From the NCBI GenBank assembly GCA_903915955.1, contig CAIWUU010000121.1, forward strand, positions 1-59,479: a stretch of DNA of 59,479 nucleotides, written 5' to 3'. The DNA comes from an uncultured Chlorobiaceae bacterium (GTDB taxonomy: Bacteria > Bacteroidota > Chlorobiia > Chlorobiales > Chlorobiaceae). Positions 31,174 to 39,482 of this stretch are shown one piece after another. Position numbers and translations under genes: made by a program. The first letter of the stretch is position 1. Each line of letters begins with the position of its first letter. The notes beneath the pieces were generated by a model, which did not search any database, was not told where the DNA came from, and saw nothing but the letters and a program-made list of their open reading frames with translations.

Positions 31174-32445
31174 ATGTACCGAGCAGGAAATACAGGGATC
31201 GTACGATCGCACTACCATTTCACAAAGCTTTTTTATCTCCTGATCCTCTTTCCCCTCCTCAAGCCCCTGTGCAGCAATCGCTCGCAGATCGTCATGAATG
31301 TTCCCGTTATTCTGCGTCGTAGGGATAATGCAGTCAGCCTTTACCACTTTGCCCTCATCATCAGTTTCAATATGGTGATAGAGAATCCCGCGAGGAGCCT
31401 CAACCGCACCGGTTGCAGCACCGGCTTTTGGTGTGTACGCGGTTTTTATCTCCGACAACTCCATGTTGAGCAGAGAGTTGATCAGCTCTTCAGCATCCTC
31501 GATGATATGAACGCACTCCACAAGCTGGGCAATATTGTTCATGAAGGGGTTGTGGCAGATCGGTTGAAGGCCGAAACTTGTGGCCACCTCCCTTGCTCCT
31601 GGGCGCAAGAGGTGAGCGTTATTGTTGAAGCGTGCCAGCGCACCAGCAACCGACGATTCGCGGCTGAGGCGGGTGAATTTCGAGGTTGAAAAATCACGGG
31701 TGTACTCGTTGGTCATCAAGAGGTAATCATTCTCATTCCGTATAACGCCGTCTGTCGAAAGAAGCTGTCCACCGATGGCCGGGTAGGTTGAGCCGTTTGA
31801 GAGTGAGATAAATTCCGTTTCACGGCTGAAATCAGGGATGATGAGCGATTGGAAAAAAGTGCAGGCGGCCTCAAGCGCTGGTTTGCTCTCCTGAATCATT
31901 GTGCGCAGATGGAACAGCCTCTGCTTGTCAGGCGCTTTGCTGATTCCGCCCACCACAAGGCTGACCGGGTGGGTGCAGCGTCCGGTTGTTATGGTGCTGA
32001 TCTCATTGCCAAGCTCCTTGAGCTGAAGCCCTGCCCTGACCAGATCAGGGTGAGACTGCATCAGCGGCAAAACACTGGAGGTGCCGGCAAAATCGGGCGC
32101 GACAAGGAAAAAGAGGTGCAGGGCATGGCTCTGCAAGGTTTCGCCGTGCATTGCCAGCAGCCTTGTCTTCTCTGCCACAACCGGAGGTACAATCACCATG
32201 GCCCGTTCAACCGCCCTGATGCTTGCAAGTGAGTGGCTGATGGAGCAGATGCCGCAGATTCTTGATGTCAGAAAGGGGACTCGTTCAGCGCTCATCCCCT
32301 TGAGCATTACCTCAAAAAAGCGTGGAGTCTCCACAATTGCCCAGCGGGCATCAACAAGCTGACCATCCCTGACCGTGATCTGGATATTGGCATGTCCTTC
32401 CACTCTGGTCAAGTGACGGATATCAAGCGCAAAGTCACGTTTCAT
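31171..32445 (-). CDS. hydA: [NiFe] hydrogenase large (alpha) subunit, group 3b type
   Basis: This 424-residue protein (start at the ATG at 32445, overlapping the small-subunit gene; the frame is open 12 codons further upstream) carries the active site. The Ni ligands are Cys64 and Cys67 (RICGIC) and Cys418 and Cys421 (DPCISC). It ends at SVH: the stop follows directly after the histidine where the maturation protease normally cuts off a C-terminal peptide, so no peptide is left to remove. It is the last gene of hydBGDA, the arrangement of the bidirectional NADP-linked sulfhydrogenase. Maturation genes (hyp) are not in the window. Confidence 0.9.
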
Positions 32446-33184
32446 CGGTAGCGACCGGTTCAAAAGCGTTATAGAAAGCAAGTTTTTCCTGCAAGTCGCT
32501 GTGGCTCAGTTTTCTCTCCCTTACCAGCTCAAGAAAGGCGGGCATGTTGAGCTCCTCAGCCGGGCCCCGGCATCCCAGACAGGCGGTTTTCCCCGTCGGG
32601 CAGACCGCATTGCAGCCAGCGCGGGTGATTGGGCCCAGGCAAATTTCGCCAAGGTCGAAGAGGCAGGTGTTGAGCTGCTGCTTGCACTCCACGCAGACTG
32701 GATATTTTGGAAGCGTTACCAGTGAGCTGGTGGCAAGACTCACGATAATCCGTTCCACCTCCTCCTTGGCAACCGGACAGCCGGGAATGGAGAGATCAAC
32801 CTTCACCACGTCGCTGATTTTTTTCACCGGCAGGGTTTCAATGGCCATGTCGCCATAAATCTCCCGGACGGTCTCATCCATACGGAATCTGTTTTTCAGG
32901 CTGTTGATGCCGCCAAAACAGGCGCAGGTGCCAAAAGCCACCAGCACTTTCGCCTGCTCTCGTATCTTCAGCAGCCGTTCCACTTCATCCTGGCGGCTGA
33001 TGCTCCCCTCTATCAACGCGATGTCGTAATCGTCATGCTTTTCCGACAGGATTTCCCTGAAGTTTCTGATGTCGAGCAGCTCAAGAAAGTCGGAGAGTGT
33101 TGACTCCCGATTGGCAAGCTGCAACTGGCACCCTTCGCAGCAGGTGAAGTCGAACGAGGCGATTTTGAGTTTTGCGATATTCAT
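32435..33184 (-). CDS. hydD: [NiFe] hydrogenase small (delta) subunit
   Basis: This 249-residue protein is related to the NuoB/hydrogenase small-subunit family and wires the active site through three [4Fe-4S] clusters. Proximal cluster cysteines lie in CCEGCQ (15-19), FGTCACFGG and IPGCPV. Further ones are in the C-terminal half: [34 protein letters not shown] and ACLGC. No Tat signal is seen, so the enzyme is cytoplasmic. Its 3' end overlaps hydA by 11 nt, which suggests translational coupling. Confidence 0.9.
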
Positions 33185-33187
33185 GGG

Positions 33188-34114
33188 CTAAATCGCCTCC
33201 TTCAAATTCATTACCGACCAGTAATCAAACACTGGACCATCAATACACGTAAACGTTGAGCCAACCATGCAGCGGCAGCACTTGCCCATGCCGCAGTGCA
33301 TACGCCTTTCCAGCGAAACAAACATCCGGTTCATCGGTATGCCAAGTTTGTCGAGATAGCCACAGACAAACTTGAACATGATCGGAGGCCCGCAGACAAT
33401 GGCGTAACTCTTCTTGACATCAACAGAGATATCATTGAAAAGATTGGTGATCATGCCGGTTTTGCCTCTCTTGCCTCTCCATTCTGCATCGCCATGCTCC
33501 ACAATGGTATGCAGCCGGATATGGTTGATCATCTCCCACTCCTCAAACTGCCAGGTGAAAAGCAACTGCGATGGCTCTTTTACGCCGTAGAGCAGATTGA
33601 TGTCAAGAAAGCGGTCGCGATGCTCGTTAATCCAGAAGAGCGGGGCGCGCAGCGGCGCAATGCCGAGTCCGCCAGCAATAAGGAGGATGTTGTGCCCGGC
33701 CATCTCATCCATCGGAAACGACGAGCCGAAAGGGCCACGTATGGCGACATAAGCCCCCTCTTCAACGGTGAAGAGCGCCGAGGTGACATGGCCCGCCTTG
33801 CGGATACAGAGTTCCAAAAACTCATGGTTGGTGCTGGAGCTTGAAATCGAGATTGGCACATCGCCATAGCCGGGTAGTTCAAGCATGAGAAACTGGCCAG
33901 GTTTGAAGCGGAAGATTGCTCGCTCCAGAGGGTCAACAATACGGAGCTGAAAAAGTTTTTCATGCTCTGTGAGGCGCACAATATTGGTGATGCGGCACTT
34001 GAACCCCCTGTCAGTGTTCATCATTTCCGAACGGCGGTTGAAATCCGGCGCAGATGATGCAAAATTCTCGCGGTTTATATCCTGGCGGGGGATGACGAAA
34101 CGCATATCAGGCAT
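33188..34114 (-). CDS. hydG: Hydrogenase gamma subunit, FAD/NAD(P)-binding oxidoreductase
   Basis: This 308-residue protein belongs to the ferredoxin-reductase-like family (as in sulfhydrogenase gamma and PyrK-like proteins). An FAD domain (about 35-130, with [20 protein letters not shown]) is followed by an NAD(P) domain ([16 protein letters not shown], about 143-158) and a C-terminal [2Fe-2S] site ([18 protein letters not shown]). It would pass electrons between NAD(P)H and the iron-sulfur chain. It overlaps the end of hydB by 40 nt. Two in-frame starts are 9 nt apart (34114, 34105), and the first 35 residues precede the recognisable domain. Confidence 0.88.
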
Positions 34115-35154
34115 GACTCCTTCTCCATTCTGAGGTCGTTGATAACATCTTTTGGGTTAATGCCCGACAGGCAGGCTCTTCCGCATCGGTTGCAACCGAC
34201 GCAGATCTGCTGGTTGCCATTTTCGGCAAATCCCCGGTGCTGATGGTAATAGCGGTACTTCAACCGGTCGCCGTTTTTCGGACGAAAATTGTGACCGCCC
34301 GCTACCACTGCAAAATCGACAAGGTTGCAGGAGTAGAGGCTTTTTTCTCGTCTCGCCCCCTTCCGATTGGTTTCACACGACTCTGTGAGCGAGTAGCAGT
34401 AACAGGATGGGCAGACCATAGCGCAGGTGCCGCAGTTGAGGCACTTCTGCCCCCATTTTTCCCAGACAGGAGAGTCAAACTCTATATCGAGAATGCTTGG
34501 AAGGGCAGTAACATCAATCTCGGTTTGAAAACTGTTCTGGATGAGCTTGCGTCGCTCAACAAGCAGGCAGTTATCATCATGGCTTGGATCACGGATTTCG
34601 AACTCTTTCAGAAAGTTGAAGGCCTTCGATGAGTTGATGGAGAGATAATAGTTATCACCAATATCAGAACAGAAGAGGTTAAAGCCGATGGTGACCGTGT
34701 GATGGTTCATCGATTTGCAGAAGCAGTCGGGCAATGGCAGATGATCCATGCCGATCACAAAGGTGTTTTTGCGCTTGGCCAGGTAGTAGGGCGAGGGAAA
34801 ATGGCTGTTGAGCAGTACATCGTCCAGAATATTGAGTGCGCTGATATCGCAAGGCCTCAAGCCGACAAGTACCACAGGGTCAGCCTCGTAGTTTATCTGC
34901 TGTTCCCAATCATCACCATGAAAGGAAAAGCGGGAGAGCTCCTCACGGAAAGGAAGAAAGAGATGCTTGGCCGATGATGTGGTTGCCGTATAGTCGAAGG
35001 CAATCTCCTCAACAGACTGCACAGGTTTAAACTGGTACACGGGATTCCCCTGACTATCGGTATCAACCTGTCGCGGCCCTAAAGAGTTGTTACTCTTCAC
35101 CAGGGCATCAACAAACCTCCTGAACTCACCTTTGGAAATGACTTTGTAGATCAT
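34075..35154 (-). CDS. hydB: Hydrogenase beta subunit, 4Fe-4S electron-transfer protein
   Basis: This 359-residue protein matches the sulfhydrogenase beta/anaerobic sulfite reductase A-like family. Two ferredoxin-type [4Fe-4S] motifs are visible in the C-terminal third: [14 protein letters not shown] (about 232-245) and [14 protein letters not shown] (about 315-328). The N-terminal part contains [19 protein letters not shown], a family segment. First gene of the hydBGDA operon on the minus strand, next to a 127-bp gap facing the U32 peptidase terminator. Confidence 0.88.
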
Positions 35155-35222: not shown

Positions 35223-35282
35223 CAAAAAAGCCTGCTGCAATAAAATTCATAACGATCTTCTGCACGACTGAAACAGCAGGCT
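35223..35282 (-). terminator. Rho-independent terminator of the U32 peptidase gene
   Basis: Read on the minus strand, AGCCTGCTG (35282-35274) pairs with CAGCAGGCT (35237-35229) over 9 bp, and the second arm is followed by six T residues (35228-35223). The first arm starts at the last base of the U32 stop codon. The loop is long (36 nt). Confidence 0.55.
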
Positions 35283-36571
35283 CATCTTCTCTTTTCAAGC
35301 AGATACACTTTGTCGTTTTTTCTCACTGTTGCACATTTGATGGTAACATTGTCGCCCTTTAAAGCATCGGTGTCAGGCAGGTCATTGGTGTAAAATCTCT
35401 CTGCAATCACCGTGACCACACCAGTTTTAGGCCCAAGAATGGAGAGCTTTTCACCTCGTTTAAGGCCACGGGCATAGATGAGCAGCTCGGCCACTTCCGC
35501 TTTTGGATAGTACTTTTTTATCTCACCGATATAGGTTTTTTTCTCCTGGGCCAGTGAGCCATACTCCCTTGTCCATGCGTCCAGAGGTTTTCCGAAATAA
35601 AACCCCGTAGAGAAGCCACGGTTATAGACCTGGGCCAGATCATGTTTGAGCGCTATGGTCAGTTTGCTGTACCTGCTTCTGAACTCCTCGTCGGAACGAT
35701 GGCGGGTGCAGAGGTCAAGCGCGCTGCGGTAGGCGGAGGTTGTTGCCTGAACATACTCAGGGCTGCGGCTCCTTCCCTCAATTTTGAAACCGCTGATTCC
35801 TGCATCGATGAGCACATCAAGAAACTCAATGGCGCAAAGATCTTTCGGGCTCATCACATAATCAGTGCCGAGTTCCAGCTCTTCGTTTTCCTCCAGATCA
35901 GTAATAATATACTGCCTGCGGCAAGGTTGCACACACTGGCCCCGATTAGCCGAGCGGCCAAAAAGCTCCTGCGACATAAAGCAGCGCCCCGACACGGCAA
36001 CACACATTGCGCCATGAACAAAGCACTCAATGCGCACATCCAGCTTGTCGCTTTTTATCTTGCCGGTGATATGGCGAACCTGCTCAAGGGTCAGTTCCCG
36101 AGCCAGCACGATCATCGTTGCACCAAGAGTGGCATAGAACTTAACTGCATTGTAGTTGCTGACTGATGCCTGTGTCGAAATATGAAAGGGTAGAGCTGCA
36201 CTCTTACATGCTTCAATAACCGCCATGTCCGAACAGATCACGGCATCAATACCTGCGGCTTTGGCTGCCGAAATGCTCTGCATCATCTTTTTCAGCTCAC
36301 CATCATAGACAATGGTATTGAGCGCCAGATAGGCTTTGGCGTTGTATGAAGCGCAGAGGGCTTTTACGGCAGAGAACTCTGCTGAGGTGAAATTGCCACT
36401 TCCGGCACGCATGTTGTACCCCTCGGCCCCAAAGTAAACAGCATCTGCACCAGCCTTAAGGGCAGTAATCAAGCAGGTCATATCGCCAGCAGGGGCGATA
36501 AGTTCAACGGGTGGTACTGTTATGGAGTTATTCCCGGGAGTTGAGAGTAACTCGGCATTGGTCAAGGGCAT
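35282..36571 (-). CDS. Peptidase U32 family protein
   Basis: The U32 family includes collagenase-like peptidases and tRNA/ubiquinone hydroxylation proteins (TrhP/RlhA/UbiU-like). Family marks are [27 protein letters not shown], then [36 protein letters not shown] (about 195-230), whose cysteines match the Fe-S ligands of several U32 members, and [13 protein letters not shown]. The frame is open upstream to 36694, but beyond 36663 it runs into the group II intron. I give the conservative ATG at 36571. Splicing of the intron would instead create an ATG at the junction (see the intron entry), adding about 31 residues. Function is not settled. Confidence 0.85.
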
Positions 36572-36663
36572 TGGTACTGTTGTTTTGTCTGGAGGTGTAC
36601 TGGCATTTAAGCTTCTAATGTACTCAAGAGGGAAGAGAATTCCTGTCGGTAGTGTCCAGTTCA

Positions 36664-37462
36664 ATCGGGTAACAGCGGCGCATTGCTGCGCCACCGTCCC
36701 CTAAGAACCCGGCGTACAACTTTCGCCGTACCGGGCTCAAGCCTCGCAAAGGCACATTGCTGTACCCGGTAAAGATGCACAATACTCCTTACCTCTACAT
36801 TATGACTGCAGCCTGCTCGATCATAATGATCTTGATGGTGCACATACGGAAAAATCCGTATTCATTTGCTTTCCACCATTATGCAGGTTCTCCAATGTTC
36901 ATGTAGCGCGAGACCCCGAGGAAGTCTGCCCACTTTCGCGTAGGGTAATGTTGCAACCCCTATCCGTCCGATTACAGGACGGCATTCGCTTTCTCCCCGA
37001 TCTTGTGCCCACACTTCCATGGTCGTCCCTTACGGTTCGATTGCCCGACATAACCGGGCGGAGGTATGGGGTTTCCGTGTTCTGCGTAACGAATATGCGA
37101 ATGAGTTAGGCTCTGTCTTTTCACCGGCGGGGTTTATTGTCAGTGTAAGTCCAAATTCAAGGGAACTCACCTACCCGCTTACCTTTTGGTTCGAGCCTAT
37201 CAGTAACTTTGGCTCGTTCCTGTTAACGATGTTTATCAACAGTTCACATGCGTTAGCCAATATCATTCTAACCGTCGCCCCTCTCCGCCTGTTACTGGCA
37301 GATTCAACCTCCCCTCACGGATCGGCCTACAGTTTCCTGCGGGTACTTTTCCGACAGCTTCACACAAGGCAATTACTTATCTTGCATGTATCGGCCGGTT
37401 CCGCTGACTGAACAGCGGGTACGCTCTACCGGACAATTCCAATACGCGACTTCACGTCGCAC
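36664..37462 (-). ncRNA. Group II intron without an internal ORF (about 799 nt)
   Basis: Read on the minus strand, the element starts GTGCGACGTGAAGTCGC at 37462 and ends CCCGAT at 36664. Domain V is exactly 34 nt (36738-36705): GAGCCCGG…GAAA tetraloop…CCGGGTTC with the AGC triad. Domain VI follows, with a GGCGCA-GCAA-TGCGCC hairpin and an unpaired A seven bases from the 3' end (36670). The six exon bases before the intron (AATTCA, 37468-37463) are perfectly complementary to TGAATT in the intron (37159-37154; intron positions 304-309), as expected for IBS1-EBS1. A weaker EBS2 candidate is CAGG at 37222-37219. No reverse transcriptase/maturase frame exists, so mobility or splicing would need a protein from elsewhere. 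Confidence 0.88.
36705..36738 (-). other. Group II intron domain V (catalytic hairpin)
   Basis: This 34-nt segment on the minus strand begins GAGCCCGGTACGGC, has a GAAA loop, and ends GTTGTACGCCGGGTTC. The length, the AGC triad opposite GTT, the two-base bulge region and the tetraloop match the invariant domain V of group II introns. It is the strongest single evidence for the intron. Confidence 0.9.
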
Positions 37463-37583
37463 TGAATTATTCAGGTCATCCATTCCGTGATTTCTCAAGC
37501 CATATCCACTCGCTGTTGTAAAGACGTGGGTGAAACCGTAGATTAGGGCAAAAAGATTGTTCGGTGAACAGGTAACTTTTGTA

Positions 37584-39482
37584 ATGAAATTATTTTTAAG
37601 GCTGGTTCGCTACCTCCTTCCTTCAAAAGGGAAGATTGTGCTTGTTGTTGTTGTCAGCGTCATCTCCTCTCTTCTTGGAGTTGTCTCGATCTATTCGATG
37701 CTTCCTCTTCTTAATGCTGTTTTTAATGCTGACAAGACTATTGAGGCACCACTCAATCCTGGATCTGCTGCTTTGGCTAAAAAGAGTCTCGAGAGTAACA
37801 GCAAGACAGGTTTGTTTGGTTTTAAGGGGCTGGATACCGAAAAGCTGAAGGCTTCTGTAACGGAAAGTTTTGAGGGTGTCTTTCATGCAGAAACCAAAGA
37901 GCAGACACTGCTGAATATCTGTCTTTTTCTCATTGTTTCATTTGCGGTTAAGAACTTTTTTGTCTATCTGAACGGCCAGCTCATTTTCAGAATACAGACT
38001 AAGACTGCTAAAAAGCTTCGAGATGATGTGTTCAGCAATATTATTGAGATGCACCTCGATTATTTTAACAAGAATCGTGTTGGCAATTTGATGAATCTGG
38101 TGTATCACGATGTTCAGGCGGTTAACAATACGGTTAGCTCAACGTTCGTGAACTTTTTGCAAAACCCTTTTTCGATATTTGTCTACGTCAGCGTTCTTTT
38201 TGTATTGAGTTGGAAGCTGACGCTCTTTGCTTCGTTCACGTCGCTCATCATTTTTTTTATCATCCGCACTATCGGAAAGAGAGTGAAAGGTCTTGCTGCC
38301 ACTTTTCGCAGTAACATGGGAGATATGAATTCTGTGCTGCAGGAGAAATTCAGCGGAATCAAGGTTATCAAATCGAGTGCTTTTGAAAATGTTGAGTTGC
38401 AACGGTTTCAGGAATTTACGCGCGGATTTCGGACGCTTGATATTAAAATAGCTCAGTTACGAAATGTGATCGGGCCGCTCAATGAGACGTTGTTGGTTGC
38501 TGCTATTGCGCTGGTGCTCTGGTTTGGTGGATTGCAGGTTTTTTCTGGTGTGATGACCTCTTCCGAACTGATGCTCTTTGCCTTTACTCTCTACTCCACG
38601 ATGGGACCTATTAAAATGTTTGGCGATGTCAATACCCAGATGGCTTTAGGGATGATCTCTGCAGAACGTTTGTTTGAGCTTCTCGATACTGCTCCTGATA
38701 TCAAAAATGGAACACGTGCTATTAATGGTTTTTCGCATGACATCAAGTTTGAAGATGTCTGTTTCAAATACAGTAAGGATGCTGATGCTCAGAATGTGCT
38801 CGATCATGTCTCATTCGAGATCAAGAAGGGGGAGATGGTTGCGCTGGTAGGTCAGTCTGGTTCTGGTAAGTCCACGACGGTCGATTTGCTGCTCCGTTTC
38901 TACGATGTCGATTCAGGTAGAATCACCATAGACGGGATTGATATTCGTGAGTTTGACTTCAAGCAGTTGCGCCGCATGATCGGTGTGGTGAGTCAGGAGG
39001 TAATTCTGTTTAACGATACGGTCAAGGCCAATATTGCTTACGGTACTCATGAAGATATTGGTCATGAGCGCGTGATTACAGCGGCGAAAATGGCAAATGC
39101 GCATCAGTTCATCGAAGAGAAGCCGGAGCAGTATGAGACCTTGATTGGCGATCGGGGAGTGCAGCTCTCTGGCGGACAGCGTCAGCGGTTGGCTATTGCT
39201 CGTGCCATGGTGAAAAATCCTGAACTATTGATTTTTGATGAGGCGACCAGCGCACTTGATAATGAATCAGAAAAGGTGGTGCAGCAGGCCATTGATCATG
39301 CTTTAGAAAACCGTACTGCGCTTGTGGTAGCGCATCGTTTATCGACGGTCAGGAATGCTGATCGGATTATTGTCATGGATCGCGGGCAGGTGGCCGAGTC
39401 GGGCAATCATGATGAGCTGCTCAAGATTGGTGGGTTATACAAGCATCTGTATGATATCCAGTTTGTGGGGAAAGTTTTATGA
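37584..39482 (+). CDS. msbA: MsbA-type lipid/oligosaccharide ABC exporter (fused permease-ATPase)
   Basis: This 632-residue half-transporter has a six-helix transmembrane domain (about 1-340) and an ATPase domain: Walker A GQSGSGKST (about 423-431), signature LSGGQRQR (about 528), Walker B LLIFDEATSALD, and H-loop VVAHRLST. Homology fits lipid A/core flippases of the inner membrane. The frame is open from 37557, but MKLFLRLVRYLLP at 37584 is the natural start. It is divergent from the intron/U32 unit and heads the glycosyltransferase island, so a role in exporting a lipid-linked glycan is reasonable. Confidence 0.88.
   Translation: MKLFLRLVRYLLPSKGKIVLVVVVSVISSLLGVVSIYSMLPLLNAVFNADKTIEAPLNPGSAALAKKSLESNSKTGLFGFKGLDTEKLKASVTESFEGVFHAETKEQTLLNICLFLIVSFAVKNFFVYLNGQLIFRIQTKTAKKLRDDVFSNIIEMHLDYFNKNRVGNLMNLVYHDVQAVNNTVSSTFVNFLQNPFSIFVYVSVLFVLSWKLTLFASFTSLIIFFIIRTIGKRVKGLAATFRSNMGDMNSVLQEKFSGIKVIKSSAFENVELQRFQEFTRGFRTLDIKIAQLRNVIGPLNETLLVAAIALVLWFGGLQVFSGVMTSSELMLFAFTLYSTMGPIKMFGDVNTQMALGMISAERLFELLDTAPDIKNGTRAINGFSHDIKFEDVCFKYSKDADAQNVLDHVSFEIKKGEMVALVGQSGSGKSTTVDLLLRFYDVDSGRITIDGIDIREFDFKQLRRMIGVVSQEVILFNDTVKANIAYGTHEDIGHERVITAAKMANAHQFIEEKPEQYETLIGDRGVQLSGGQRQRLAIARAMVKNPELLIFDEATSALDNESEKVVQQAIDHALENRTALVVAHRLSTVRNADRIIVMDRGQVAESGNHDELLKIGGLYKHLYDIQFVGKVL

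Follow-up and report, generated by a model that had tools for sequence, protein, structure and literature searches.

A structurally intact group II intron lacking a maturase gene, with an apparently recombinant 5′ half, in an uncultured Chlorobiaceae bacterium

ORF-less group II introns are rare in bacteria and are nearly always found beside a related maturase (2015 review, PMC4424553). The closest precedent for the intron described here is provided by the TeI3 and TeI4 introns of Thermosynechococcus elongatus, where ORF-less and ORF-containing introns likewise belong to one family. The ORF-less TeI3 introns were shown experimentally to be mobilised in trans by related maturases, the TeI4 introns acting as 'drivers' (PMC2882425). 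As in the Chlorobiaceae introns, a common domain IV deletion leaves the ORF ends in TeI3, and the T. elongatus introns are mostly intergenic and form twintrons near the ORF start (PMC2882425). Unlike TeI3, however, the ORF-less lineage of Chlorobiaceae spans several species and two genera, some assemblies that carry it show no cognate maturase, and the copy studied here is apparently recombinant. A further difference is that the Chlorobiaceae family is described here from sequence.

The DNA analysed (the window) is a stretch of 59,479 nt from an uncultured Chlorobiaceae bacterium; other genomes (G), contigs (C) and loci (L) are cited by our own numbers. On sequence criteria, an element on its minus strand is confirmed as a complete group II intron without a maturase gene (Table 1). 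The initial annotation had placed this intron at 37462 to 36664, and Rfam matches, homologues and an empty site show these coordinates to be exact to the base. The covariance-model search of domains V and VI, set beforehand as the refuting test, returned a match to the full RF00029 model (1–77) at 36740–36664 on the minus strand (54.8 bits, E 4.9e-8). This score and that of RF02012 both lie far above the Rfam gathering score. In a BLAST search with the 799 nt, relatives matched query bases 1–799 end to end (95, 92, 77 and 77% identity) within differing flanks. Both intron ends are therefore defined by homology, and the 5′ terminus is GTGCG, as originally read. The termini GTGCG...GAT fit the group II rule of 5′ GUGYG and 3′ AY.

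The 34-nt domain V with its AGC triad and GAAA loop had also been recognised correctly, as had the bulged A of domain VI seven bases from the intron 3′ end, which is A36670. In domain V, GAGC is paired with GUUC. Alignment of domains V and VI shows A36670 to be unpaired and invariant in 18 sequences, and the 28 pairs hold in 99.2% of pair cells (17 distinct sequences). Moreover, double changes affect 10 of these 28 pairs, a level reached in none of 500 shuffles. Folding of the 799-nt RNA, proposed as a check on 37462–36664, gave a z-score of -6.3. Splicing of the intron by lariat formation is predicted.

Table 1. Positions of the intron, its parts and its neighbours in the window.
Feature	Position	Strand	Remarks
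MsbA-like ABC exporter, divergent neighbour	37557..39482	+	PF00664 + PF00005; TIGR02203 509 bits, below cut-off 602
5′ exon target CCTGAATAATTCA	37463..37475	-	IBS2 37475-37470 + IBS1 37468-37463; identical to IS1380-type IS end
ORF-less group II intron	36664..37462	-	799 nt; 5′ GTGCG ... CCGAT 3′; Rfam matches, end-to-end homologues, empty G029 site
Domain I core, RF02012 (group-II-D1D4-7), full model 1-151	37277..37419	-	Rfam 104.8 bits, E 5.6e-21
EBS2 AACAGG (intron 239-244)	37219..37224	-	pairs 4/6 with IBS2 CCTGAA; position fixed by relatives
EBS1 TGAATT (intron 304-309)	37154..37159	-	pairs 6/6 with IBS1
EBS3 = A (intron 344)	37119..37119	-	pairs with IBS3 T at 36663
Compact domain IV without maturase gene, approximate bounds	36745..36909	-	same in ORF-less relatives; ~1.5 kb here in ORF-containing relatives
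Remnant of maturase ORF start, reads MNTDFSVCAPSRSL then stop	36785..36865	-	aligned with ORF-containing introns encoding MQMNTDLSVCAPSAQGW...
Domain V, 34 nt, GAAA loop, AGC triad	36705..36738	-	Rfam; domain V/VI alignment and covariation
Domain VI, branch-point A at 36670	36667..36701	-	Rfam; domain V/VI alignment and covariation
3′ exon start TGA, IBS3 = T	36661..36663	-	with 5′ exon completes 16-nt match to IS end
Peptidase family U32 protein, 429 aa from ATG 36571	35282..36571	-	PF01136, 252.5 bits

The missing maturase gene, noted in the initial annotation as well, corresponds to a deletion of the domain IV ORF relative to ORF-containing introns: the start of the maturase frame is kept as an 11-codon remnant and the remainder is deleted. 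In the genus, relatives that retain the ORF measure about 2160 nt and encode a maturase of about 504 aa at the same domain IV position. This family maturase carries RVT_1, RVT_N and GIIM domains, and its nearest PDB chain is 6me0_C (E 8.9e-183), from the T.el4h intron RNP of T. elongatus. The deletion ends in domain IV are identical among all ORF-less introns compared. The compact domain IV is present in at least eight other Chlorobiaceae genomes (G087, G077, G025, G066, G206, G005, G035 and G069), one of which, G206, represents a second genus of Chlorobiaceae. Full-length ORF-less relatives occur in G087, G077, G025, G066 and G206, and in three genomes the copy is incomplete (G005, 3′ part; G035, fragment; G069, partial). 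Among 394 sampled genomes of the phylum, matches at 1e-10 were confined to the Chlorobiaceae-equivalent family f1 and to two of its genera. The ORF-less introns constitute a stripped-down and probably hitch-hiking family spanning many related bacteria.

Other arrangements were seen among the introns of this family. A second family intron lies directly after ...GGAAAGCAAATG, the maturase ORF start of an outer intron, at L195 (G084:C198, 1303–1484) and L223 (G080:C83, 1266–1386). These twintrons, located at the same spot in G084 and G080, resemble those that T. elongatus has close to the start of the ORF. At L226 (G206:C67, ~545), an intron 5′ end, GTGCGA, abuts the 3′ end of an ORF-containing intron, so that the two are in tandem. 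Finally, the ORF-less copy at L196 (G084:C14, 626–1234) is shortened to 609 nt, with intact ends and with internal deletions at ~334–389 and ~481–589 in window-intron numbering.

The initial annotation had matched EBS1 (TGAATT, 37159–37154) with IBS1 (AATTCA, 37468–37463) over six bases, and all six pairs are borne out. Within the family, EBS1 pairs with its own exon at a mean of 5.58 of 6 bases compared to 4.19 with shuffled exons (12 introns; 0 of 5000 shuffles). For EBS2 the corresponding means are 5.21 and 4.30 (14 introns; 0 of 5000 shuffles). EBS2 was placed at intron ~232–244 by comparison of relatives, among which the G077 intron pairs 6/6 (ATAAGA/TCTTAT); a candidate in a TTCAG loop (intron ~50–55) was dropped, since the relatives put EBS2 elsewhere. 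When alignment columns were scanned for complementarity to position +1 of the 3′ exon, column 344 came out best, with 10 of 14 Watson-Crick pairs and two G-U pairs; the base before EBS1 was not among the best complements. This single comparative test is consistent with IIB-type recognition of the 3′ exon by EBS3–IBS3. One EBS1 base differs between the window intron and that of G087, and the compensating IBS1 base is present at the G087 C124 copy.

The same gap between msbA and the U32 gene lacks the intron in G029, and aligns without gaps across the predicted junction. Comparison of the joined window flanks with this empty site (L043) reveals differences at roughly half of the ~15 bases surrounding the junction (37453–37477), and near identity over the 40 bases on each side. 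The window junction is CCTGAATAATTCA joined to TGA, compared to CCTCTTTCATTGATTT at the G029 site. Exon co-conversion or an IS scar could possibly account for this divergence. The 16 nt of the window junction are identical to IS ends on contigs C43, C58 and C93 of the same genome. CCTGAATWATTCA is present at six places each in the window's genome and in G018 and at nine in G087, and is absent from G029. The copies that were read mostly run on into a repeated element, and one leads to a DDE_Tnp_1_4 transposase frame, of the IS1380 type. Family introns are located 13 nt inside the IS end in G018 C23 and G087 C124. The window site may be an IS remnant, a chance mimic or a sequence altered by co-conversion.

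A comparable preference is found in RmInt1 of Sinorhizobium meliloti, an intron that encodes its own protein and targets ISRm2011-2, of the IS630 family. There too, the natural target is an insertion sequence, and ectopic sites resemble the IS target (PMC5894124). In the Chlorobiaceae, however, it is ORF-less intron copies that are found, and they lie in an IS1380-type IS end. Another subfamily, with several copies in both G005 and G084 (L195–L209; also L188, G087:C66), has exons such as GGTCCTATAGGACT, then TATA or TAC after the junction; its target seems to be a dispersed repeat of the CCTATAGGAC type.

With a probability that we put at roughly 85%, the window element would be a structurally intact, non-autonomous group IIB intron, mobile by means of a maturase acting in trans and endowed with a recombinant 5′ half. 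The minus-strand intron RNA would fold and splice by branching, and the maturase/reverse transcriptase of an ORF-containing relative would bind it in trans and aid splicing. The lariat would then be reverse-spliced into DNA sites chosen via EBS1, EBS2 and EBS3, such as IS1380-type IS ends; CCTGAATAATTCATGA is a candidate target for such maturase-driven movement. The window copy would have inserted into a sequence resembling an IS end, within the gap that precedes the U32 gene. An ORF-containing lineage would have supplied its 5′ half, with EBS1 and EBS2, and the ORF-less lineage its 3′ half.

A homologous maturase intron elsewhere in the genome had been named in the initial annotation as support for mobility in trans, and this expectation holds in part. 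BLAST of the assembly contigs found no second full copy of the window intron, only a 3′ tip at the start of C161. On this contig the final codons of a maturase ORF come first, and then a family 3′ end that is 94% identical to the ORF-containing intron of G027; the rest of that copy is absent from the assembly. Because C161 carries both the end of a family maturase and a 3′ ribozyme end, a driver copy probably exists in the window's genome, outside the assembly. The only complete group II maturase assembled in this genome (C119, 503 aa) is ~30–34% identical to the family proteins over most of its length, and the C119 intron is not similar by BLAST, so that this protein is an unlikely driver. 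The closed genome G066 has both an ORF-less copy and an intron with an intact maturase of 504 aa. In G077 and G025, both ~99% complete drafts with ORF-less copies, neither a cognate maturase nor contig-end traces of one were found. These two genomes recall C.te.I1 of Clostridium tetani, an ORF-less intron whose host genome lacks a related maturase (PMC4424553, PMC3919590). C.te.I1, however, is located inside a protein gene, with several alternative 3′ splice sites (PMC4424553, PMC3919590), whereas the window intron has one domain V/VI only and is intergenic.

Two reverse transcriptases of the window's genome (G000) without a GIIM match at threshold, L040 (G000:C123, 1367–2647) and L041 (G000:C1, 264–1280), are possibly retron, DGR or defence enzymes. 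More domain V matches, unlike the window intron by BLAST, lie on G000 contigs C50, C93, C136, C156 and C96, three of them with equal scores and near contig ends. These represent a different intron family, present in several copies, at which the assembly breaks.

The window copy might be an immobile relic, dead or capable of splicing only, whose insertion took place while a driver was available and which has since just stayed in an intergenic gap. The assembly of its genome contains no other ORF-less copy and no complete cognate maturase, and the ORF-less copies of G077 and G025 have neither cognate maturase nor contig-end trace. However, the ribozyme core and the splice-site pairings of the window intron are intact. 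Moreover, the ORF-less form is common to other species, where it occupies other sites, and has therefore moved after ORF loss. We thus consider a relic unlikely, although it deserves more credit than the other alternatives, and retain an intron mobile in trans as the preferred reading.

A single ORF-less clade over the whole ribozyme was rejected by the tree, and a mosaic analysis followed, in which segments 1–345 and 346–640 were picked after viewing the sliding-window profile. In the tree of segment 1–345, the window, G087 and G077 copies group with the ORF-containing introns of G062, G002 and G071 (100/100), and the data reject a single clade of ORF-less introns (p-AU 1.4e-5). In the tree of segment 346–640, all ORF-less introns form one clade (98/99), and a grouping of the window clade with its 5′-half partners is rejected (p-AU 1.2e-12). 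The domain IV stretch preceding the deletion is 78–81% alike among ORF-less introns across lineages, compared to at most 60% with ORF-containing introns. The window copy is thus apparently a recombinant, whose targeting half (EBS1/EBS2) was swapped in from another intron. A single ORF-less clade is likewise rejected by domains V and VI alone, in 80 columns only; there may therefore have been several exchanges, and domains V–VI may have been exchanged too.

If the ORF had instead been lost independently in different introns, with compact domain IVs that merely look similar, the 5′-part and domain V–VI trees would not need to unite the ORF-less introns, and they do not. This explanation is nevertheless improbable in view of the common deletion ends, the higher similarity among ORF-less introns ahead of the deletion and the single clade obtained with segment 346–640. 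The simplest reading would be one ORF deletion followed by exchange of the 5′ half holding EBS1 and EBS2. More tentatively, and at somewhat less than even odds, one old non-autonomous ORF-less lineage of Chlorobiaceae would have outlived its maturase partners, persisting without a cognate maturase and retargeting through recombination of the 5′ half while the compact domain IV was kept.

As first annotated, the intron lies upstream of the U32 gene, its 3′ end being ~90 nt before ATG 36571. The other neighbour had been called msbA: MsbA is indeed its best NCBIfam match, but the TIGR02203 score remains under the cut-off, hence the more cautious name in Table 1. The open U32 frame extends into domain VI only mechanically (GTG at 36694), and the nearest U32 homologues found by tblastn are all in Chlorobiaceae assemblies. 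A sigma-70 scan, which was uninformative, found no promoter. The conserved block in relatives starts ~18–22 nt downstream of the 3′ splice site, and the U32 promoter may therefore lie downstream of the intron. Shared strand and proximity could fit a cis-regulator in the U32 5′ untranslated region, splicing or folding of which would tune the mRNA, but the lack of an assigned promoter, the absence of the insertion in G029 and the position of the conserved block make this the least credible alternative. Beyond the U32 gene, at 32435–35154 on the minus strand, the translations suggest a NiFe hydrogenase of the sulfhydrogenase type, with a small subunit, a flavin reductase-like protein and an Fe-S protein among its subunits.

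We found no description of this family in the literature on group II introns of green sulfur bacteria; the Simon 2008 survey might mention it. The element itself is of an ordinary kind, and its identity is well supported. What may be new to specialists is the genus-wide ORF-less lineage, together with the recombined 5′ half and the partner-less genomes. As a genus-wide set of natural cases with and without a maturase partner, the Chlorobiaceae family could show how introns become non-autonomous, how their splicing is sustained by a common helper and whether new sites can be reached by exchanging the targeting half. Loss of autonomy, a shared helper and a change of target are proposed steps toward spliceosomal introns.
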